In this document: in pieces, positions 28,099-56,617 of the stretch
How positions within the stretch are numbered: position 1 is the first letter of the stretch
Layout: the number at the start of each line of letters is the position of its first letter
Source of the DNA: Deltaproteobacteria bacterium
GTDB lineage: Bacteria; Myxococcota_A; UBA9160; UBA4427
NCBI GenBank assembly: GCA_029261855.1
Contig: JAJDAN010000032.1
Span: 186,001-250,000, forward strand
Direction: 5' to 3'
Length of the DNA stretch: 64,000 nucleotides
Position numbers and translations under genes: made by a program
Notes under the pieces: generated by a model
Databases searched by the model: none
What the model was told of the DNA's origin: nothing
Seen by the model: the letters and a program-made list of their open reading frames with translations, nothing else

Positions 28099-30018
28099 GT
28101 GGTAGACCTGCATCCCAACTTCACGATCGCGCTGGCCCTGGCCGCTGGCGTGCTGTCGCAATCCCTGGCGCGGCACCTGCGGGTGCCGGGCATCGTGGTG
28201 CTGCTGGTCGCGGGTGTCGGGCTCGGGCCGGATGGCCTCGGCTGGGTCGACCCCCACGCCATCGGGTCGGGGATGTACGCGATCCTCGACGTCGCGGTCG
28301 CGGTGATCCTGTTCGAGGGCGGCCTGAACCTGCAGTTTTCCCGCCTGCGTCGGGTGCAGTCGTCGGTCCGGCGGCTCGTCACCTACGGGGGTCTGATCAC
28401 CGTCGCCGGCGGCGCCGTCGCCGTCCACTACCTGCTGGGTTGGGACTGGAAGCTCGCGGTGCTGTTCGGGTCGCTGGTGATGGTGACTGGGCCGACGGTG
28501 ATCGGACCGCTGGTGAGCGAGCTTCGCTTGAAGGGTCGCGTGTCCACGGTGCTCGAAGCCGAGGGCGTGCTGATCGATCCCATCGGCGCCTTCTTCGCGG
28601 TGCTGGTGCTGGCGCTCGTGGTCGCCCCGGACGCGACTTCCGTGGCGGACGCGGGCCGCGACCTGATGGTGCGCCTGGGCTTCGGGCTCTTGATGGGCGG
28701 TGCTACCGGCGTGCTGCTGGCGGGGGCCCTGCGCGTGCGGCGCCTGGTTCCGGAAGGGCTCGAGAACATCTTCACCCTGGCGGGCGTGCTGCTGCTGTTC
28801 GAGACCAGCGAGCTCGTCATCGACCACAGCGGCATCCTGGCGGTCACCGTGGCGGGCACCGTGCTCGGCAACATGCCGACGCCGGTGGCGCGTGAGCTGC
28901 GTGAATTCAAGGACCAGCTGACGGTCATGTTGATCGGCCTGCTGTTCGTGATGCTGGCCGCGGACGTCCGCTACGACCACGTCGTCGCGTTGGGGGTGCC
29001 CGGCCTGCTGGTCGTCGTTGCGCTGGTGCTGGTGGTGCGTCCCATCGGCGTGTGGCTGTCGACCCTGGGCTCGGACCTCAGCAATCGCGAGCGGATGTTC
29101 ATCGCATGGGTGGCGCCGCGCGGGATCGTGGCCGCGGCCATCGCCTCGCTCACGGCCATCGCCCTGGAAAGCAAGGGCATGGCGGGGGGCACCGAGCTGC
29201 GGGCGTTGGTGTTCCTGACGATCGCGGGCACCGTGCTGCTGGCCGGGCTGACCGCGGGCTTCGTCGCGACCTGGCTCGGCGTGAAGCTGCCCGCCCGGGA
29301 GGGGGTCGCGATTCTCGGCGCGCACGGTCTCGGTATCGCCCTGGCCGAGCTGCTGCGGTCCAACGGCACGTCCGTCGTCTTCATCGACTCGAACCCGCAG
29401 AACTGCCGGCGGGTGGAGGAGTCGGGCTTCACGGTCGTCTACGGCAACGCCCTCGAAGAACGGATCCTGCAGCGTGCGCGCTTCGAAGAGGTGAAGACCG
29501 CCATCGGGCTCACGGCCAACAAGACGGTGAACGCCGTGTTCGTCGATCGTGCCCGAGACCTGTTCGGGGTCACCGAGGGGCTCGTGGCCGTCGACCGAAG
29601 GGACACGGGCTTCGCCAAGGAGCTGGTCGCGAACCAGCAGGCCAAGGTCGCCTTCGACGGTCCCCACGACATGGGCCGCTGGGACGTGCGCGATCGCCGC
29701 GGCGCGGTCACCGTGGAGAAGCGCCGCTTCAAGACGCCCACGGCGGCGGCGCCAGAACGCGCGGTGTCCGACACGCTTTCGATGGCGGAAGAGAGCTACG
29801 TGATCCTCGCCATCCAGCGCGGCACCCGGGTCTTTCCCATGTGGGCGTCGTTCGTCCCCAAGGACGACGACGTCGCCACCGTCGCGGTGCACGAGGTCGA
29901 AGCCGAGGACGCCAACACCCGTCTCGTGGCCAGCGGCTGGATGCCCGAAGCCGTCAGCGAGGACGATTCGGAACCCGCCGAAGAAACCGCGCAGGCGTCT
30001 CAGGCGTCTGCGACGTAG
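28099..30018 (+). CDS. NhaP-type cation/proton antiporter with TrkA-N domain
   Basis: The 639-residue protein begins with a CPA1/CPA2-type antiporter of about 12 helices. Membrane motifs include GPTVIGPLVSELRLKGRV near 130 and a conserved VAPRGIVAAAIASL near 338. A regulatory TrkA-N (RCK) domain from about 400 holds the NAD motif GAHGLGIALAE. The C-terminal part is a further cytoplasmic domain. It would export Na+ or K+ in exchange for H+, with nucleotide gating. GTG start with GGGAGG 4 bases upstream. Divergent from the SufR-like gene. Confidence 0.9.
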   Translation: MVDLHPNFTIALALAAGVLSQSLARHLRVPGIVVLLVAGVGLGPDGLGWVDPHAIGSGMYAILDVAVAVILFEGGLNLQFSRLRRVQSSVRRLVTYGGLITVAGGAVAVHYLLGWDWKLAVLFGSLVMVTGPTVIGPLVSELRLKGRVSTVLEAEGVLIDPIGAFFAVLVLALVVAPDATSVADAGRDLMVRLGFGLLMGGATGVLLAGALRVRRLVPEGLENIFTLAGVLLLFETSELVIDHSGILAVTVAGTVLGNMPTPVARELREFKDQLTVMLIGLLFVMLAADVRYDHVVALGVPGLLVVVALVLVVRPIGVWLSTLGSDLSNRERMFIAWVAPRGIVAAAIASLTAIALESKGMAGGTELRALVFLTIAGTVLLAGLTAGFVATWLGVKLPAREGVAILGAHGLGIALAELLRSNGTSVVFIDSNPQNCRRVEESGFTVVYGNALEERILQRARFEEVKTAIGLTANKTVNAVFVDRARDLFGVTEGLVAVDRRDTGFAKELVANQQAKVAFDGPHDMGRWDVRDRRGAVTVEKRRFKTPTAAAPERAVSDTLSMAEESYVILAIQRGTRVFPMWASFVPKDDDVATVAVHEVEAEDANTRLVASGWMPEAVSEDDSEPAEETAQASQASAT

Positions 30019-33646: not shown

Positions 33647-34315
33647 ATGGCGATGGCAGATGGTCTGATCGGCAAGGAACTGTTTTCCTTCCTGCGCGCG
33701 CTGGCGCGCAACAACGACCGCGACTGGTTCAACGCCAACAAACAGCGCTACATCGACGACGTGCGCGACCCGCTGTGTCGCTTCGTCGAAGCCGTCGGTC
33801 CGAAGCTGCGCGACATTCATCCGGGCGTGATCGCGGACTCGCGGCCCAACGGCGGCTCGCTCTTCCGCATCTACCGCGACACCCGCTTCTCGAAGGACAA
33901 GACGCCGTACAAGACCCACGCCGCGCTGCACTTCCAGACGGCGCCGAAGAAGACGCCGTCGCCGGGCTTCTACCTGGGCCTCGAGCCGGGCTCGGTCATG
34001 GTCGCCTGCGGGCTCTGGCATCCGCCGAACGACGTACTCCTGCGCGTGCGCCAGGCCATCGTCGACGACGAAGCGGGTTGGAAGAAGATCCGGAAGCTCG
34101 GCTTGTGGGAAGATGACGAGGCGTTGGTGCGTCCGCCCCGGGGCTTCGATGCGGACCATCCCTTCATCGAAGACATCAAGCGCAAGAGCTTCACGGCGCG
34201 CACCTCGTTCAACGAGAAGGACGCCTGCGCGAAGGATTTCCCGGCGCGCTTCGTACGCGCGTGTCGGGGCTACAAGCCGCTGCTGGTGTTCCTCGCCGAC
34301 GCGGCAGGTGTTTGA
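33647..34315 (+). CDS. DUF2461 family protein
   Basis: The 222-residue soluble protein has the family-defining ELFSFLRALARNNDRDWFNANKQRY start, SLFRIYRDTRFSKDKTPYKTH near 70 and FYLGLEPGSVMVACGLWHP near 107. Biochemical function unknown. Its 3' end overlaps the convergent bactofilin-like gene by 46 bases, and a 12-base tandem repeat begins just after its stop. Confidence 0.9.
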   Translation: MAMADGLIGKELFSFLRALARNNDRDWFNANKQRYIDDVRDPLCRFVEAVGPKLRDIHPGVIADSRPNGGSLFRIYRDTRFSKDKTPYKTHAALHFQTAPKKTPSPGFYLGLEPGSVMVACGLWHPPNDVLLRVRQAIVDDEAGWKKIRKLGLWEDDEALVRPPRGFDADHPFIEDIKRKSFTARTSFNEKDACAKDFPARFVRACRGYKPLLVFLADAAGV

Positions 34316-35730
34316 CCCGGGCTCTGACCCAGGCTCTGAGAAGAGTTCTGAGAAGAGTTCTGAGAGGAGTTCTGGGAAGAGCTCTGAGACCGCAGCCAGG
34401 TCGCGAGTGCGCCGAGCCCAACCAGGGCGCCGACGAGCCCGACCAGCGGACCCAGCCACGGGACGACGCGGAGGCCCGCGTAGGCGGCGGCCCCGATCGC
34501 GATCGTGATCATGGCCGGGACGATCGCACTCACCTGTCCTGCGGAGGGCGCGACGAGGGAAGGAACGAAGCGCTCGACGAGCGCGCGTCCCAGGCCTGCG
34601 CTCGCCAGCACTGGCCCGACGTAGACGAGCGCGATGAGGAAGACCGTGAGGACAGCGGTCTGGGTGAGGGCGCCGGCGAAGATCGCGGTTACCGCGAGGC
34701 CCCCGAGGTCCGTCGCGATCCCGAGTGCGAGTAGCACCGCGAAGCCGAAGCCCAGCACCATCCCGGCCAGCAACGCGAAGGCGATGGCCGCGACCCCCCA
34801 GCCGAGCAGGTCGACGGGCCGGTTGCGGACGTCGTCACCTCGGGCAGTCAGAAAACCGGGCACGGTCACCGCGAGCCCCAGGCCGAGGATCAGCAGCAGC
34901 ACGAGTCGCTCGACGCCTCCGTTCGATGAGCCTTCGAACCAGCTCTCGATCCTGCTCTCGTCGTCGCTGGCAGACACACCGGTGGACGTCGCGCCGGCCC
35001 GCCAGGCTTCGTGCCGGACGGCGCCCGCGATGCTCGCGTCGGGTGAGATCCGGGCCGGTTCTGGCGAGCGGTAGTCGAGGTCGCCGCCGATGGCGGCGCT
35101 GCCCGTCACCGTGATGCCGTCGGCCACCGGCGGGATCTCGAGATCGATGTCGACGACGAGGGTCGAGTGCGTGACGCCTTCGAGCCCGCCGACCACCGTG
35201 TGTACGGACCCGCCGACGAGTCCCTGCAGCTCGAGCGCGCCGCTGCGCGCGCGCAGGTCTTCGACGATCTGGCCTGCCAGGAGCAGCTGCTTGGTTGCTG
35301 CGTACAGCGACCCGCCGAGGCCACTGCCCGGCTTGGCTTCGAGGCTGTAGCCCGCGGTCCAGAAATCGTCCGCGACCCGGGCGTCCTCTCCGAGAGCGAT
35401 GGCGAACGCCACCACCCGCGCATCGTCGTTCACCGATCCGTTCAGGTACAAGGTCTTCGCTACGACCAACAGGTCCTGCTCGACGATGCCTTCGACGACC
35501 ACGTCCTGGGCGAGGATCGTCAGATCCCCCTTCACGACTCCGTCCACGCGTACATACGGGGCCTGGACGAAGAGGTCGTCTTCGATGACCTCGTGTGCCT
35601 GGAGGACGACCTCGTCGTCGGCCACCAGGGTGACGGCCGCGCCTGCGGGCGCCCCTGCGATCGTGGCGACGGTGCCGATCAGAACGAGTGCGCTGGCAGG
35701 CAGACCGATGGGCCGAACAGGCGTTCGCAT
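34270..35730 (-). CDS. Bactofilin-like domain plus C-terminal membrane helices
   Basis: The 486-residue protein has a signal-like N-terminus. Then comes a long beta-helical region (many V/I-D/E repeats, for example VEGIVEQDLLVVAKTLYLNGSV), as in polymer-forming bactofilin-type domains, up to about 240. The C-terminal half has five or six membrane helices. The tail is a low-complexity SSQNSSQN repeat made by a 12-base tandem DNA repeat. Probably an envelope scaffold. ATG 35730 leaves a 34-base divergent promoter to the LolA-like gene. Confidence 0.72.
   Translation of the reverse strand: MRTPVRPIGLPASALVLIGTVATIAGAPAGAAVTLVADDEVVLQAHEVIEDDLFVQAPYVRVDGVVKGDLTILAQDVVVEGIVEQDLLVVAKTLYLNGSVNDDARVVAFAIALGEDARVADDFWTAGYSLEAKPGSGLGGSLYAATKQLLLAGQIVEDLRARSGALELQGLVGGSVHTVVGGLEGVTHSTLVVDIDLEIPPVADGITVTGSAAIGGDLDYRSPEPARISPDASIAGAVRHEAWRAGATSTGVSASDDESRIESWFEGSSNGGVERLVLLLILGLGLAVTVPGFLTARGDDVRNRPVDLLGWGVAAIAFALLAGMVLGFGFAVLLALGIATDLGGLAVTAIFAGALTQTAVLTVFLIALVYVGPVLASAGLGRALVERFVPSLVAPSAGQVSAIVPAMITIAIGAAAYAGLRVVPWLGPLVGLVGALVGLGALATWLRSQSSSQNSSQNSSQNSSQSLGQSPGQTPAASARNTSSGL
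34319..34390. repeat. 12-base tandem repeat (about six units)
   Basis: Units of the form GTTCTGAGAAGA repeat about six times with small changes. They encode the SSQN tail of the minus-strand bactofilin-like protein and start a few bases after the DUF2461 stop. Likely expandable by slippage. Confidence 0.8.
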
Positions 35731-35764
35731 CCAGGCTCCGTGGCAGGTGGTAGATTCCGGGTCG

Positions 35765-36613
35765 ATGCCCCGGCAGACGATTCTACTCGGCACGCTGGTG
35801 CTCGCCCTCGCGTGGTCCGGTCCCCCCGCCTGGTCGGCCGCGCCCGAACCCGGTAGCGCTGCCGCTCTGCTCGACCGCGCCTACAAGAATCTCTACGCCG
35901 AGGACTACATCCAGACCCTGGTCCTGGCGACCCGCTCGCGTGGCGGCAGCGAGATGCGCCGCCGGCTCCAGCTCACGCGCCGGCAGAGCGTGCGACCCGG
36001 CAAGGCGCTGCTGCGCTTCCTCTACCCCCAGTCGATCCGTCGCACCTCGGTGCTCGTGCTCGAAAACGAGGGAGCATCGGACGACTTCTACGTCTACCTC
36101 CCGGCGGTGCGCATCACGCGGCACCTGTCGAGCGCGCAGAAGGGCGACTCCTTCTTCGGTACGGACCTCAGCTACGAGGACGTCGAGCCCAAGAGTATCG
36201 AGGACTTCGAGGTGCGCTTCGTCGAAGAAGACGCCCCACCGCCGGGGGCTGCGCCCTGCGTGCGGGTCGAGATCACTGCCGCCCCCGGTTTCGATTCGGC
36301 CTACGAACGCCAGGTGTCCTGTCTCGAGCGCGAACGCGGCATCATCCTGTGGACCGACTATTACGTGAAGGGCCGCCACCTGAAGCGACTCACCGTCGAT
36401 CCGGCGGAGGTGCGTCGAGTCGGCGATCGCTGGATCCCGTTCCTGATCACCCTCGAGACGCCGCGGCTTCGTTCGTCGACGAAGGTGATCACCGAGGACT
36501 ACGAGCTGCGCGCCGAGATCCCGGACAACCTGTTCAACGCCTGGAATCTCGAGGCGGGCGACGCCAGGAGCGACCGTCGCAAGACAACCCCCGCGCCCGA
36601 CGACGATCAGTAG
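35765..36613 (+). CDS. Exported LolA-like outer-membrane lipoprotein-sorting protein
   Basis: The 282-residue protein has a signal peptide (ILLGTLVLALAWSG). The mature part is the LolA/LolB-type fold seen in DUF1329/outer-membrane lipoprotein-sorting proteins: RRRLQLTRRQSVRPGKALLRF near 63, DDFYVYLPAVRITRHLSS near 102 and DLSYEDVEPKSIEDFEVRF near 130. Probably carries a lipid or lipoprotein across the periplasm. Its stop overlaps the convergent ion channel gene by 7 bases. Divergent from the bactofilin-like gene. Confidence 0.85.
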   Translation: MPRQTILLGTLVLALAWSGPPAWSAAPEPGSAAALLDRAYKNLYAEDYIQTLVLATRSRGGSEMRRRLQLTRRQSVRPGKALLRFLYPQSIRRTSVLVLENEGASDDFYVYLPAVRITRHLSSAQKGDSFFGTDLSYEDVEPKSIEDFEVRFVEEDAPPPGAAPCVRVEITAAPGFDSAYERQVSCLERERGIILWTDYYVKGRHLKRLTVDPAEVRRVGDRWIPFLITLETPRLRSSTKVITEDYELRAEIPDNLFNAWNLEAGDARSDRRKTTPAPDDDQ

Positions 36614-37701
36614 AGCAAGAAGAAGTAGACGGCCGACAAGGCGTTCGCGCCGAAGAAGCAGAGCGGCACCAGCCAGCGGCAGGTCTGGTCCAGCTTGTCT
36701 CCCTCCGCACGTCGCCCCGCGCGGTCGAGCTTCGATACCGCGAGGTTCTCGATCACGCCGACGGCCAGCACGATGTAGGTCGAATACAGGAACCCGCTCA
36801 TGAGGGTGAAGTACGCGATGCCTGGCATCGCCTCACTGACGATGATCTGATACGCGACCACCGTCAGGATGCCGATGAACGAGATGTCCATGCGGTCGCC
36901 CAGGGACGAGTGATCCATCCAGAAGACCGAGAAGGTGAGCAGCACGAGCAGGGTCAGCGGCAGTACGACGACCTGCAGCATGTGCGCCGGGCGACGGGCC
37001 ATGTCGATCGTCGCTACGACCAGGGACAACTCGCCGCCGTGACCGTCGCCGTAGATCGGTCGATAGCTGCGCGAAGTGACCTCCAGCCCTTCGAAGTCCC
37101 ACTGGGCGATCCCGACACCGTCGTTGGCTCCGCCCGAGGTGGACGGGTCGGGAACCAGAACCACGCGGTCCTCGCCGAAGCCGAGAACCTCGAAGCGTGC
37201 CTCGAAGCCTTGACGATCGAAGGGGAAGCGGCGCAGACCCATCGGCATTTCGGCAGATGCGGCGATCTCGGAGATCAGGGTCATGCTTCCGTCGGGGGCG
37301 ATCCGCAGCAGCACCGCCTGTGAATCGAAGCCGCCCGATTCGTTGGTCAGGATGAGCTGTGGCCACCAGCCGTCGAAGACTTCCGAGAACTGGTAGCTGC
37401 CCTGGTAGGTCCGGAAGGGCGCGCCGATTTCGTCGGCGTCGAAGGCCTGGCGAGGGTCGTTCCATCGAAGCGTGACGATCGCTTCGAAGGAGAACGCTTC
37501 CAGCCGCTCGTCGATCTGGTTCACCTCGCTCAGGAAGAACCCGAAGGACACCTTTACCGGGCCGTCCGCGTCGGGTGGACCCAGCAGGAACGGTTCTGCG
37601 AAGACGATCCCGGGCGCAGCGATCAGCCCCCACAGGACGCCCACTGTCGTCGACAGAGCGAGGAAGGCCGATCGGAACCTCGTAGGAGTTTCGGGTTGCA
37701 T
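36607..37701 (-). CDS. Pentameric ligand-gated ion channel homologue
   Basis: The 364-residue protein has a signal peptide, an extracellular beta-sandwich (about 40-235) with the family RFPFDRQ motif at 158-164, and four membrane helices M1 241-261, M2 268-288, M3 297-318, M4 344-364. The M2 lining (DRMDISFIGILTVVAYQII) is polar/hydrophobic. The Cys loop has no disulfide pair, as in the prokaryotic GLIC/ELIC channels. It should gate ions in response to a ligand or pH; selectivity unknown. Confidence 0.87.
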   Translation of the reverse strand: MQPETPTRFRSAFLALSTTVGVLWGLIAAPGIVFAEPFLLGPPDADGPVKVSFGFFLSEVNQIDERLEAFSFEAIVTLRWNDPRQAFDADEIGAPFRTYQGSYQFSEVFDGWWPQLILTNESGGFDSQAVLLRIAPDGSMTLISEIAASAEMPMGLRRFPFDRQGFEARFEVLGFGEDRVVLVPDPSTSGGANDGVGIAQWDFEGLEVTSRSYRPIYGDGHGGELSLVVATIDMARRPAHMLQVVVLPLTLLVLLTFSVFWMDHSSLGDRMDISFIGILTVVAYQIIVSEAMPGIAYFTLMSGFLYSTYIVLAVGVIENLAVSKLDRAGRRAEGDKLDQTCRWLVPLCFFGANALSAVYFFLLY

Positions 37702-37713
37702 GCGGTGGGCCTG

Positions 37714-38496
37714 CTAGGCGGGCGGGTCGGTGAGGCGACGTCCGGCCGTGTAGCCACCGTCCACCGCGAGGGCGTGTCCCGAAACGAAGGACGCGTCGTC
37801 GGACACCAGGAAGAGTGCGGCGCCGGCCACCTCCTCGGGCTGTCCCGCCCGCCGCAGCATGTGACCGTCGACGAATCGCTGGCGGACGGCGACGAGCTCG
37901 GGGGACTTGAGCACTTCGGTCAGGGGCGTGTCGATCAGCCCCGGGCACAGGCAGTTGACCCGAATTCCGAGGTGGCCGTAGTCCACGGCCATGTTCTTGG
38001 TGAGCAGTACGACCGCGCCCTTGGATGCGTTGTAGGCGGCCTGCTGTTCCATCGCCTCGAGCCCTTCGATGCTCGAGAGGTGCACGATGCTGCCACGGCG
38101 CTGCTTCGCCATCTGCTGGACGACGAACTTCGACGGGACGAAGGTGCCCGTGAGATTGATGCTGATGACGCGCTCCCATTCGGCGAGGGCGAGCTCTCCG
38201 ACGGCCCCGGCACCGGCCACGCCCGCGGCGTTCACCAGCGAATCGATGCGGCCGAAGCGAGAGACGATCTCGGACACGACGCGTTCGATGGCGGCCTCGT
38301 CCCGAACGTCGGCCTGCCAGAACCCGCTGTCCGGTGCGACTGCCACGGCGCGACCCCAATCCCCCGCGTCGCCGGGTTTCGCGAGATCGATGCCGGCGAC
38401 GATCGCGCCTTCGCGCGCGAAGCGCGCCGCGCAGGCGGCGCCGATCCCCGACGCGGTCCCTGTGATGACGGACACCGTTCCTTCGAGACGACTCAT
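37714..38496 (-). CDS. Short-chain dehydrogenase/reductase
   Basis: The 260-residue enzyme carries TGTASGIGAACAARFA (cofactor loop), NAAGVAG and AYNASKGAVVLL (Tyr/Lys), with catalytic Ser in VHLSSIEG. It is a classical SDR, likely NAD(P)-dependent alcohol dehydrogenase/oxidoreductase. ATG 38496 is used. It stops 12 bases before the ion-channel start, so the two may be co-transcribed. Divergent from the MBL gene. Confidence 0.92.
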   Translation of the reverse strand: MSRLEGTVSVITGTASGIGAACAARFAREGAIVAGIDLAKPGDAGDWGRAVAVAPDSGFWQADVRDEAAIERVVSEIVSRFGRIDSLVNAAGVAGAGAVGELALAEWERVISINLTGTFVPSKFVVQQMAKQRRGSIVHLSSIEGLEAMEQQAAYNASKGAVVLLTKNMAVDYGHLGIRVNCLCPGLIDTPLTEVLKSPELVAVRQRFVDGHMLRRAGQPEEVAGAALFLVSDDASFVSGHALAVDGGYTAGRRLTDPPA

Positions 38497-41422: not shown

Positions 41423-42274
41423 TTAGCTGCGACTGCGGCGTCGGCGCGCGGCCAGGCCGACGAGGCCCAGGGCCACCAGTACCGCGGTCCCGGGCTCGGG
41501 CGTCGCGACGGCGTCGAAGTTCTGCTGGACCTGCGCGGGGGTCAGCACCTGGTTGCGATAGAAGCGCATCAGGCCCATCTCGCCCAGGAAGTCGCCGTAG
41601 CCGTTGAGGGTGCTGCCCTGGTTGCTGCCGAGCTGGCCCACGCGCGTGCCGATGCCGGCTCCGTTCGAGTTGCTCCAGTCGCTCAGGCCCGCGGCGGAGG
41701 TGCTGCTTCGCAGCAGGCCGTCCACGTACAGGCTGGCGGTGCCGTTCAGGGAGATGGTGATCGCTGCCTGAAAGAACTCGCTCGCGTCAGCGCCCAGGTC
41801 ATAACTGGTCGACACGGTGGTGCCGTTGTCCTTGGCGCGCAGGGTCAGGACACTGTCGTCGAGTAGCAACGCCAGGCCGTCCTGGTTGCCGCCGGTCTCG
41901 AACAGCACCTGCTCCCCGCCAGACATGCTGCTCGGACGGAACCACAGCTCGAGGCTCAGGTCTTCGTCCGAGGGGTCTCCGGCCGCGAGCGTGTCGAAGG
42001 ACACTCCTGAAATGACGTCGCCGGCGCCCATGTCGAAGGACCCGGTGATCCCGGGGAAGGTCGTCGTGGTCGGCGCCGAGCTCGTGCCGGACACGGTCCA
42101 CTGATTGTTTCCAACGGTGGCGTTCCACTGCGCGGGGTTCGTGCCCGGCGCGGACGCCCGCCAGTTGAAGGTCGGCGGCACGGGCAAAGCCTGAGCGGCC
42201 GCCGGTGCGAGCAGGACGAGCGTCGCCAGCAGCGCGAAGCCGAGCTTTCGTAGGGGGTCCGGGAGGGCAGACAT
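41423..42274 (-). CDS. PEP-CTERM protein with LamG-like domain
   Basis: The 283-residue protein has a signal peptide, a concanavalin/LamG-like beta-sandwich (LSLELWFRPSSMSGGEQVLFE near 106-126; FFQAAITISLNGTASLYVDG near 167), and a C-terminal sorting tag TPEPGTAVLVALGLVGLAA followed by RRRRSRS. It would be processed by the exosortase encoded about 10 kb away and end up at the surface or in the matrix. ATG 42274 fits the signal peptide. Confidence 0.9.
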   Translation of the reverse strand: MSALPDPLRKLGFALLATLVLLAPAAAQALPVPPTFNWRASAPGTNPAQWNATVGNNQWTVSGTSSAPTTTTFPGITGSFDMGAGDVISGVSFDTLAAGDPSDEDLSLELWFRPSSMSGGEQVLFETGGNQDGLALLLDDSVLTLRAKDNGTTVSTSYDLGADASEFFQAAITISLNGTASLYVDGLLRSSTSAAGLSDWSNSNGAGIGTRVGQLGSNQGSTLNGYGDFLGEMGLMRFYRNQVLTPAQVQQNFDAVATPEPGTAVLVALGLVGLAARRRRSRS

Positions 42275-42361
42275 CACCCTCCTATCGGCATATCGCCCCA
42301 ACAGAATGAGGGGCTCGCAGTTCGACGCGCAGCCGGTCGGCAGCCGGCGCGCAGCTCGCCT

Positions 42362-52791: not shown

Positions 52792-54357
52792 ATGGACATC
52801 AGCCCGATCGGCTCGGCAGCATCGACAGCAGGCGCGGTCCGCGACCGGATCGTCCGGCTCGGCTGGCCCGCCGTCGTTTCGGGGGTGGCCGCGATCGCGC
52901 TGGTGATGGATCCCGCCCGGTGGCTCGTCGAGACCTGGCGGGATCCGTCCTACCAGAGCGAGGGCGGCTTCGTCGCGCTGGGCATCGCGGCGCTGCTCGC
53001 CGTGTCCGTCGCGAGCGGACCGGCCCAGCCGGACCCGCGCGCGGTTCGGGTCGCCTGGCGACTGCTGCTGGGGACGGCCGCGGTCCGGGTCGTCGGGCAC
53101 CTGCTGGCGGTGGACACCATCGGAGCCCTGGCCCTGGTCGTCGACCTGGGCGCGCTCGCGGTTGCACTGGGCGTCGACCGTCGGCCGTTCGCGCTGCGGC
53201 CCCTCGCCGTCGCCGGGCTGGGCGTCCTCGCCCTGCCCCTCGAGAACCTGTTGCAGCGTCTACTCGGACATCCTCTGCAGCTCGCGGCCGCAGCCGGTGC
53301 GGAAGCGGTGCTCGCGCCGTTCCGTCCGGACGTCGTCCGGGAAGGCGTGCTGCTGCTGCATCCCGATGTCCTGCTGGCCGTCGACCTGCCGTGCAGTGGC
53401 GCCCGTGGTCTGCTGCTGCTGTGCGGGTTGGCGCTCGGCTTCTGGTGTCGTCGACAGGTGTCGCTACCCCGGGCGCTACTGGGCGCCGCGGCGGTCGTCG
53501 GTGGCGCCTTCGTGGCGAACGCCTCGCGGGTGATCGTGCTCTTCGAAGGCGCGCGCGCCGGCTGGCCGCTGCACGACGAGCCCTGGCACACGCTGCTGGG
53601 ATGCGGGGTCCTCGCGATCGGCGCGCTGCCGGTCTTCGTGGTGGCACTTCGGTCGACGCCGCGGCAGCCGCGTTGGCAGCGCCCCTTCGGTGTTGCGAAG
53701 CCCTCGTTCTCGCCGGGTCGACTGTCGCCGGTCCTGGCTTCGACGCTCGTCTGCGCCGCCGCCCTGGTCGCCTGGACGCCCGCGCGGCCTCTCGACGTCT
53801 CGGAACCCGTTGCCGGACGCCGGCTGCCGGCGGCGATCGGGAACCGGGTCGGCACACCGCTTCCGCCTTCGGGCCAGGAACGCCTCTATTACGAACGCTA
53901 CGGCGGGTCCCTCGAGAAGCGCGTCTACGGCGATGGCCGCGATTCCCACGCGGTGCTGCTCGTCCGCACGGGCGCGCCCCTGCGCCACCTGCACGGTCCC
54001 GATCGCTGTCTCATCGGCGCCGGACACACGGTGACGCGCCTCGGGGTTCGTCACGGTGCGACGCCCTCGATCATCTACCGCAGCGTCGCGCCGGACGGGA
54101 GCCTGTGGCGGGTCGAGGCGTCGTTCGTCGACGACGCCGGACGCAGCGCCGCCAGTGTGTCCGAAGTGCTGTGGCGTTGGCTCGACGAGCCCCGTGCCTG
54201 GAGCCTGGTCGAACGCATCGCTCCGTGGTCGCTGTGCGAAGCGGACCCGGAACGCTGCAGCGCGTTCGACGCCGAGCTCTTCGCCGCCTTGGATCTCCCC
54301 TCCTCCATTTCTGACCGATCGCTTCCCGATCGCTCTCTCCCGGGACCGCGCTCGTGA
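52792..54357 (+). CDS. Exosortase with fused EpsI-like domain
   Basis: The 521-residue protein starts with about eight membrane helices of the exosortase/archaeosortase family. Active-site residues are Cys201 in VDLPCSGARG, Arg246 in VANASRVIVLF and His266 in EPWHTLLGCG. The C-terminal ~200 residues form an EpsI/DUF3485-like domain. It should cleave and transfer PEP-CTERM proteins at the inner membrane. It is first of a unit: VIT/VWA PEP-CTERM protein, response regulator, kinase. Which XrtX subtype it is cannot be told. Confidence 0.9.
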   Translation: MDISPIGSAASTAGAVRDRIVRLGWPAVVSGVAAIALVMDPARWLVETWRDPSYQSEGGFVALGIAALLAVSVASGPAQPDPRAVRVAWRLLLGTAAVRVVGHLLAVDTIGALALVVDLGALAVALGVDRRPFALRPLAVAGLGVLALPLENLLQRLLGHPLQLAAAAGAEAVLAPFRPDVVREGVLLLHPDVLLAVDLPCSGARGLLLLCGLALGFWCRRQVSLPRALLGAAAVVGGAFVANASRVIVLFEGARAGWPLHDEPWHTLLGCGVLAIGALPVFVVALRSTPRQPRWQRPFGVAKPSFSPGRLSPVLASTLVCAAALVAWTPARPLDVSEPVAGRRLPAAIGNRVGTPLPPSGQERLYYERYGGSLEKRVYGDGRDSHAVLLVRTGAPLRHLHGPDRCLIGAGHTVTRLGVRHGATPSIIYRSVAPDGSLWRVEASFVDDAGRSAASVSEVLWRWLDEPRAWSLVERIAPWSLCEADPERCSAFDAELFAALDLPSSISDRSLPDRSLPGPRS

Positions 54358-54403
54358 TGCGTCCCGCCCGCTTTCTCAACCCCGGCAAAACGAAGGAACC
54401 GTC

Positions 54404-56617
54404 ATGAAATCTGCTCGCGCCCGAACGGGTCCCGTCTTTTTCGTCCTCGTTCTCTGGACGCTCGCCCTGTTGGCGAGCGCCTGGAATGCGCCCTCGGCCC
54501 GGGCCGACGCGGCCGGGGTCTCTCTCGAGGCCGAAGTCGACGGCCATCGCACGCCGCTTCCCCTGCTCGAAACGGTGATGGACGCTCGCATCCAGGGCGA
54601 CCTGGCAACCGTGCGGCTGACCCAGGTCTTCGCGAACCCCCACGACCAGCCGCTCCACGCCCGCTATGTGTTCCCGTTGCCCTCCGATGCCGCGGTGTAC
54701 GCGATGCGCATCACGAGCGGCGACCAGGTCATCGAGGCAGAGATCCACCGCAAGCAGGAAGCGCGCGCGATCTTCGAAAACGCGAAGGAGCGGGGCAACC
54801 AGGCAGCACTGCTCGAGCAGCACCGTCCGAACGTCTTCAGCCAGGAAGTGGCGAATCTGATGCCCGGCCTTCCCGTGCGAGTCGATCTCGAGTACGCCCA
54901 CGTGGTCGAGCGCGGCGCCCGCAGCCACGACGGGGACTACGCGTTCCATTTCCCGATGGTCGTCGGCCCGCGCTACCTGCCGCCCGTCCCGCACGGCGGG
55001 TCGGAAGGCGCGCCGACGAGCCGACCCGGCGAGCCTGAGGGTCTCGAGATCGGCCGTTGGAATCTGCCGGCCTCGGCCCCGGTGGCGGCGCCGGACGAGA
55101 TCGATCGCGACCGCGTGCGCTTGAAGATCACTCTCGATGGGGGGCTGCCCATCCGCCGGGTCGAGAGCCCCACCCATCACATCGCCGTCGATCGCAAGTC
55201 GCCGCAGCTCTACGAGATCGGACTCGCCGAGGGTCCGACCATCGACAACAAGGACTTCATCCTGCAGTACCGACTGGCCGGCGAAGACGTCGCCGCGGGC
55301 GCCACCGTGCACGCCGACGATGGCGACGGTTTCGTGAGCCTGCTCCTCGAGCCGCCGGCGGACGCGAGCGACGACCGCATCACGGCGCGCGAGCTCGTCT
55401 TCGTGCTCGACTGCTCGGGAAGCATGTCGGGCATCCCGATGGACGCCTCGAAGCGCTTCATGCGCCGGGCCCTGCCCCAACTGAGGCCTGGCGACTCCTT
55501 CCGCATCATTCGCTTCAGCGAGACCGCAAGCGAGTTCGGCGAGCGACCGCTGCCCGCCACAGCGGAGAACGTCCAGCGGGGTCTCGCCTACGTGGACGCG
55601 TTGTACGGGACCGGCGGCACCGTCATGACCAGTGGCATCCGCACGGCGCTCGCACCGCCGGTGCCCGAGGATGCCGTGCGTCTGGTGGTCTTCCTCACCG
55701 ACGGCTACATCGGCAACGACGTCGAGGTGGTGCGGCTGATCGAATCGCGCCGCGGAGATGCGCGTTTCTTTTCCTTCGGCATCGGGCACGGCGTGAACCG
55801 CTATCTGCTCGAAGAGATGGCCCGGGTCGGCCGCGGCGCCGCGCGCATCGTGCTGCCCAATGAAGACGCCGAGCAGGCCGCCGACGAGCTGGCCGCGCGG
55901 CTGGCTTCTCCCGTCCTCACGCATGTGTCGATCGATTGGGGGGACGCGCCCGTCACGGATGTGTTCCCGGCGCAGATCCCAGACCTGTTCCTGGGGCAGT
56001 CCCTGCGCGTGATGGGTCGCTATTCCGGTGACGGCACGCATCGCATCGCCGTGAATGGCCGGATCGCGGGGCGACCGGTGACCCTGCCCCTCGATGTCAC
56101 GCTCCCGTACGAGACGGGCGACGGCGCCGGCGACGCGCTTCCGATTCTCTGGGCCCGCGCCTGGGTCGAAGACCTCATGACGACGTACCGGAGTCCGGGC
56201 CTTCCCGCCGACGAACGCGACGCCCTCGAGGAAGAAGTCGTGCGGCTCGGCCTCGAGCACCGCCTGGTGACTCAGTGGACTTCGTTCGTAGCCGTCGCGA
56301 AAGAGATCGTGAATCCCTTGGGCATCGGGCAGGACGCCGACGTTGCGGTGCCGCCGGTCGCGGGCGTCTCGCCCCTCGCGTACCCGCCGGGCGCCCTGCG
56401 TCGACGGGTTCCGACGCCCGGCGGGAAGGCAACTCTCGTCGCAAGCGCGCAATCCTTTGGGGGAAGCGCGGCGCCCGAGCCCGGCACCTGGGCCGCGGTG
56501 GCGTGCCTGGTCGCAACCGGGGCCGGAGTCGCCGCGTGGAACCGTCGTCGCGCACGAGGGATCCAAGCTTCTAATGGCCAGGATCCTCGTCGTCGACGAC
56601 GACCCGCACATTCGTGA
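54404..56617 (+). CDS. VIT + VWA domain protein with PEP-CTERM tail
   Basis: The 737-residue protein has a signal peptide, a VIT domain (about 38-165: VRLTQVFANPHDQPLHARY, RKQEARAIFENAKERG), and a VWA domain with MIDAS FVLDCSGSMSG (Asp336, Ser338, Ser340). The C-terminal APEPGTWAAV near 691, a hydrophobic stretch and RRRARG form a PEP-CTERM tag. It is expected to be the main local substrate of the adjacent exosortase. An extra 18-residue basic tail overlaps the response regulator gene by 44 bases; a single-base shift would give a TAATG overlap instead. Confidence 0.9.
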   Translation: MKSARARTGPVFFVLVLWTLALLASAWNAPSARADAAGVSLEAEVDGHRTPLPLLETVMDARIQGDLATVRLTQVFANPHDQPLHARYVFPLPSDAAVYAMRITSGDQVIEAEIHRKQEARAIFENAKERGNQAALLEQHRPNVFSQEVANLMPGLPVRVDLEYAHVVERGARSHDGDYAFHFPMVVGPRYLPPVPHGGSEGAPTSRPGEPEGLEIGRWNLPASAPVAAPDEIDRDRVRLKITLDGGLPIRRVESPTHHIAVDRKSPQLYEIGLAEGPTIDNKDFILQYRLAGEDVAAGATVHADDGDGFVSLLLEPPADASDDRITARELVFVLDCSGSMSGIPMDASKRFMRRALPQLRPGDSFRIIRFSETASEFGERPLPATAENVQRGLAYVDALYGTGGTVMTSGIRTALAPPVPEDAVRLVVFLTDGYIGNDVEVVRLIESRRGDARFFSFGIGHGVNRYLLEEMARVGRGAARIVLPNEDAEQAADELAARLASPVLTHVSIDWGDAPVTDVFPAQIPDLFLGQSLRVMGRYSGDGTHRIAVNGRIAGRPVTLPLDVTLPYETGDGAGDALPILWARAWVEDLMTTYRSPGLPADERDALEEEVVRLGLEHRLVTQWTSFVAVAKEIVNPLGIGQDADVAVPPVAGVSPLAYPPGALRRRVPTPGGKATLVASAQSFGGSAAPEPGTWAAVACLVATGAGVAAWNRRRARGIQASNGQDPRRRRRPAHS

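Follow-up and report, generated by a model that had tools for sequence, protein, structure and literature searches.

The minus-strand gene considered here lies in a 64,000-nucleotide stretch of DNA (the window) from a deltaproteobacterial genome and is real and intact, and its product falls in the same ion-channel family as the nerve-signal receptors; domain, sequence and fold support this product as a bacterial pentameric ligand-gated ion channel (pLGIC) of the GLIC/ELIC type. What sets this channel apart is mainly a predicted ring of acidic residues at the narrow inner end of the pore, where position 2' of the pore helix M2 is an aspartate, a residue that is uncommon in the subfamily and precedented in the solved channel sTeLIC.

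The open reading frame begins with ATG and ends with a TGA stop at 36607–36609, and it is the one pLGIC copy that we found in its genome; its parts and the adjoining genes are collected in Table 1. Two Pfam domains exceed their curated cut-offs, namely the ligand-binding domain PF02931 (residues 44–238, E 3.6e-16) and the transmembrane region PF02932 (residues 246–325, E 1.9e-7), and GLIC entries (about 1e-29) head the solved relatives that a phmmer search of the PDB gives for the protein, the M1–M3 part alone retrieving sTeLIC (1.3e-7) and ELIC as its best solved relatives. The NCBIfam model LGIC_1 (NF033918), which we take to represent the ELIC-like family, is matched at E 4.2e-74 with 249.7 bits, which against a curated cut-off of 500 bits places the protein as a relative of that family below its threshold. 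AlphaFold2, run as a monomer on a 76-row alignment, gave a model with pLDDT 91.1 and pTM 0.82 that consists of an N-terminal helix, a beta-sandwich domain and four further helices (Table 1). The top Foldseek match to this model is GLIC (4npq_H, 2.1e-27), the GLIC rows having TM-scores, normalised to the target, of 0.86–0.91 and sTeLIC entries standing at ranks 23 and 29, and among the matches listed by VIA-align are GABA-A, GLIC, glycine, GluCl and RDL subunits with Z 27.3–28.6 (314 residues at rmsd 2.5 for Z 28.6). The protein thus has the features of the Pro-loop receptor superfamily, that is, a beta-sandwich ligand-binding domain with a PFD Pro-loop, four transmembrane helices with the M1 proline, a basic residue at 0' and a leucine at 9', and the whole-subunit fold as judged by Foldseek and VIA-align; the disulfide-forming cysteines that flank the loop in animal Cys-loop receptors are absent, residues 140–170 containing no Cys. 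Five residues (P160, D162, P248, R270 and L279) are invariant in all 76 aligned sequences. An earlier sequence-only reading had proposed a GLIC/ELIC-type pentameric channel with a four-helix plan and an RFPFDRQ loop, and had named a missing M1–M4 topology as the finding that would speak against it; Pfam, phmmer and Foldseek agree on the type, with the pentamer itself inferred, the loop is present, and a check of the model for absent helices found all four, so that objection falls away.

Table 1. Features of the channel gene and its immediate neighbours (positions in the window; residues numbered in the channel protein)
Feature	Position	Strand	Basis and remarks
pLGIC subunit, 364 aa, intact	36607..37701	-	ORF; PF02931 + PF02932; PDB GLIC relatives; AlphaFold2 pLDDT 91.1
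Probable Sec signal peptide, residues 1–35	37597..37701	-	Sequence and model helix 8–27, then ...VFA/EP; cleavage site placed by eye
Extracellular (periplasmic) beta-sandwich ligand-binding domain, residues ~43–236	36994..37575	-	PF02931; model strands
Pro-loop RFPFDRQ, residues 158–164	37210..37230	-	Sequence, alignment; without Cys-loop cysteines
Loop C, residues 213–225 (YRPIYGDGHGGEL)	37027..37065	-	Between model strands 201–213 and 225–236; alignment
M1 helix, residues 238–261, conserved P248	36919..36990	-	Model, alignment
M2 pore helix, residues 264–289	36835..36912	-	Alignment, model
D272 codon (2' Asp)	36886..36888	-	Aligns with sTeLIC D227, GLIC T226
M3 helix, residues 300–327	36721..36804	-	Model
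M4 helix, residues 331–363	36613..36711	-	Model
SDR-family oxidoreductase	37714..38496	-	Likely start 38496; ORF extends to 38664
LolA-like outer-membrane lipoprotein-sorting protein	35399..36613	+	PF17131 E 1.8e-33; start as in the ORF list, the gene itself probably beginning near 35770

For comparison we used GLIC of Gloeobacter violaceus, which is proton-gated (PDB 3EAM, 4NPQ), ELIC of Dickeya/Erwinia, which is amine-gated (PDB 2VL0, 3RQU), sTeLIC of a Tevnia symbiont, which is alkaline-gated (PDB 6FL9, 9EX6), and DeCLIC of Desulfofustis, which is activated by calcium depletion. With GLIC, its best PDB sequence match, the window protein shares the fold, the four transmembrane helices, the PFD Pro-loop, R192, A13', I16' and the acidic residues E35 (E68 in the window protein, Glu in 74 of the 76 rows) and E26 (E59); the two differ in that they are only about 25% identical, that several additional residues precede W112 in the window protein, that GLIC has A-1' and T2' in place of D-1' and D2', and that GLIC E222 (-2'), H235 (11') and E243 (19') are replaced by G268, V281 and S289. 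E35 is described as a proton sensor of GLIC (PMC5760087), and sTeLIC has a matching glutamate (E28). At about 24% identity, sTeLIC shares Asp 2' (D227), R0', L9' and A13' with the window protein and differs from it at -1' (Lys against Asp), 6' (Gly against Ile) and 16' (Phe against Ile); it also has a similar insertion ahead of W75, the residue aligned with W113 of the window protein. Since the vestibule of sTeLIC is described as binding brominated amines and bromocinnamate, with W75 among the vestibular residues shown (PMC11988449), this tryptophan match is at most a hint to the ligand of the window protein. ELIC resembles it in the motif SVFW...(E/D)R..SF...LTVVAY across M1–M2 and through the LGIC_1 match (E 4e-74), and has Gln 2' and Thr 6' where the window protein has Asp and Ile. 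DeCLIC shares the pLGIC fold and the 9' Leu and is described with extra N-terminal domains and a 16' Phe (PMC9897478), whereas the window protein has no extra domains and a 16' Ile.

The M2 pore segment that the sequence-only reading had recognised could be placed in register by alignment with GLIC, ELIC and sTeLIC, and reads G-2' D-1' R0' M1' D2' I6' L9' A13' I16' E20', the last being residue 290, just beyond the end of the helix; against its relatives the alignment of M2 is gapless. Across the 86 subfamily rows most of these positions are strongly conserved (0' is Arg in 83, 9' Leu in 83, 13' Ala in 81, and -1' Asp in 71 and Glu in five, an acid in 76 altogether). Position 2' is variable, with 36 Ser, 25 Asn, 12 Asp, five Arg, three Ala, three Gly and two Thr, and more distant relatives from the phylum have Glu (L148) or Gln (L141, L147, L149) in this column. 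Cation-selective Cys-loop channels are described as carrying an acid in the intermediate ring where anion-selective ones have Pro-Ala (PMC4055736). The window protein, with an acid at -1' and no Pro-Ala, is cation-selective by that sequence rule, subject to the caution in PMC4795631 that M2 charge-ring positions are in general insufficient for selectivity calls in prokaryotic sequences; I6' and much of the remaining M2, which make for a rather hydrophobic pore, count against the cation-pore reading. The expectation that the pore lining would yield new selectivity data holds as far as the Asp 2' is uncommon, and falls short of what was hoped because sTeLIC already has it, so that the gain from the window gene alone is modest. 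Taken with its near homologues, in which this place is taken by Ser, Asn, Thr, Ala or Arg, it forms a natural series in which the 2' ring could be set against charge and divalent selectivity.

Relatives of the gene were recovered from named genomes with an alignment as query (152, of which 80 were kept), the window protein alone finding no matches in a separate scan, and they come from at least Myxococcota, Acidobacteriota, Pseudomonadota (Halieaceae, Methyloceanibacter, Thiohalocapsa), Planctomycetota and Verrucomicrobiota. Matches at E <= 1e-10 occur in 22 of 79 genomes of the window's order, and a broader profile finds 25 of 377 sampled genomes of its phylum at 1e-60. The description of the lineage as sparsely sampled is thus apt in that the subfamily is patchy, and overstated in that 152 relatives from at least five phyla in one scan do not make a tiny group. 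The nearest relative, L020 (probably the same genus; MAG Myxococcota bacterium IP29b_bin.86), is 60% identical to the window protein, and the pair gives pS 0.533 and pN 0.275, or dS 0.93 and dN 0.34, a dN/dS of about 0.37; the ratio is about 0.09 to 0.25 for five other family pairs and about 0.24 to 0.37 for four pairs of the Arg-2' clade discussed below, some of the dS values being close to saturation. From the excess of synonymous over non-synonymous changes against L020 the window gene looks maintained, and the subfamily is maintained by selection; two homologues (L032 and L067) have in-frame stops. On a quickly built tree from which the 2' column was left out, and with sTeLIC counted among the Asp-2' rows, the distribution of Asp 2' needs five changes, of which at least three are forced by the starred branches, and none of 500 shuffles was as low; a single origin of the residue is therefore unsupported. 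Ten of the 12 Asp-2' rows of the subfamily fall in two places, the pair of the window and L020 and a clade of eight rows (seven Halieaceae and L026), the other two being L021 and L072, and the position of sTeLIC is unsure because its long branch joins that of L013. The loop C motif Y-x-P-x-Y-x-D-G-H was considered as a marker of the Asp-2' channels and rejected: it is exact in three of the 13 Asp-2' rows (window, L021 and L039; sTeLIC counted), and, with L020 lacking it, it was not taken as a ligand signature. An origin from mobile elements likewise found no evidence, with no relative in a pattern scan of IMG/VR or in 50,697 phage records and a single match of 24%, on a Legionella plasmid, in 72,556 plasmid records.

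The surroundings of the channel gene agree with the sequence-only reading, which had placed it behind an SDR gene and convergent with a LolA-like gene, with no obvious ligand-synthesis gene nearby. A gap of 12 bp separates the channel gene from the upstream SDR gene, which has the same orientation and is possibly co-transcribed with it, SDR homologues occurring near four other channel loci (L044, L062, L079, L090) and adjoining the channel gene in none of them; the 3' ends of the LolA-like and channel genes overlap by 7 bp (36607–36613), and no ligand-synthesis gene is evident. When open reading frames up to five places from the channel were clustered over 81 loci (the window and L020–L099), with gene calls that are longest-ORF guesses, no gene family was common to more than eight loci, and the neighbours indicate no ligand. 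The window's sulfatase, which is an enzyme of a common type, falls in one of the two largest clusters; the clustering did not cover the LolA-like gene, whose place in the gene calls had gone to a spurious antisense ORF. At the same-genus locus L020 the channel gene is preceded by a MlaC gene and followed by one for a glycosyltransferase. Homologous downstream neighbours are seen at six loci of the Asp-2' clade (L026, L029, L034, L041, L042, L045), those checked by Pfam (L026, L041) being Amidohydro_3 amidohydrolases, with the one at L026 on the opposite strand, and in a Thermoanaerobaculia MAG (L021:1-978) a gene for a ZnuA-type metal-binding protein (PF01297, E 2e-40) lies upstream and overlaps the start of the Asp-2' channel by 4 bp. 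Elsewhere in the window, a Na+/H+ exchanger fused to a TrkA-N domain (28099–30018) lies some 6.6 kb away from the channel, and a membrane protein (34270–35793) has a bactofilin-like stretch below threshold (PF04519, E 0.0093). An exosortase EpsH gene (52792–54357), an ORF that overlaps it and has VIT and VWA domains (54056–56617) and a separate PEP-CTERM lectin-like protein (41423–42301) are signs of an exosortase sorting system.

We consider it quite probable that the window gene codes for the subunit of a homopentameric, cation-passing pLGIC of the inner membrane that is gated from the periplasm, the pentamer, its orientation, its selectivity and its gating route being what we infer from the evidence above. 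On removal of the signal peptide the beta-sandwich domain would face the periplasm, where it might sense a small molecule or an ion, at the subunit interfaces or in the vestibule; the signal would then pass by way of the Pro-loop, loop 2 and the M2–M3 loop to open the hydrophobic gate at L9', and the pore, with its acidic ring at -1', the additional 2' Asp ring and the 20' Glu, would pass cations, which would change the membrane potential or the cation content. As of 2016, PMC4795631 gives no known biological role for the pLGICs of unicellular organisms; few bacterial members are known to have been recorded since.

Control by protons or alkali in the manner of GLIC and sTeLIC, in place of a ligand, is a possibility that we regard as somewhat unlikely. 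It would draw on acidic residues at the interface of the extracellular and transmembrane domains and on the Asp 2' ring, and both E68 and E59 are acidic in the window protein, which has its Asp 2' in common with sTeLIC; yet H235, E222 and E243 of GLIC are all unmatched, and the identity to either channel is low. GLIC and sTeLIC, moreover, respond to opposite pH changes and both keep the E35 residue, which consequently predicts nothing about gating. That the 2' ring is instead a divalent site, with Ca2+, Mg2+ or Zn2+ either conducted or blocking and a role in metal sensing or homeostasis, we find distinctly unlikely. Such a ring would bring five carboxylates together close to the inner constriction, and ELIC is described as inhibited by divalent ions (PMC3502511) and the family as commonly inhibited by calcium (PMC9897478), but the divalent sites that these sources give for ELIC and DeCLIC are in the extracellular domain and not in M2; the ZnuA-type gene that overlaps the start of an Asp-2' homologue was identified at that one locus only, and no metal gene adjoins the window channel. 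As for a non-functional gene, decaying or transferred, to which the patchy distribution within the order and the two stop-broken homologues might point, the intact reading frame, the synonymous excess against L020 and the retained signature residues make it highly improbable, and a cation-passing, periplasm-gated channel remains our preferred reading.

The charge-reversed relatives of this channel are, in our view, a more interesting lead than its precedented Asp 2'. Five of the 86 rows (L008, L009, L010, L011 and L111), whose genomes are of the family and order to which the window belongs, make up a clade with 99% SH-aLRT support that has Arg at 2' and Gly, Ala or Ser at -1' in an ungapped register with the window protein. 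An arginine introduced into M2 of the muscle acetylcholine receptor is described as giving chloride conductance at positive potentials (PMC6800317), and the Arg-2' clade is, on its residues, a candidate for anion-selective bacterial pLGICs, of which our literature search found no report. That one order evolved opposite charges at the same constriction, Asp 2' with D-1' against Arg 2' without the -1' acid, is an idea that we hold to be unlikely; if true, the window's clade would select strongly for cations and might pass divalents or be blocked by them, and the Arg-2' clade would be anion-selective. A profile of the Arg-2' clade matches six of 377 sampled genomes of the phylum at 1e-129 or better, and one of these, a genome of the order (G065; loci L120, L124, L156 and L108/L128), holds two pLGIC genes, of which the one assigned to Arg-2' by profile is broken by an internal stop codon.
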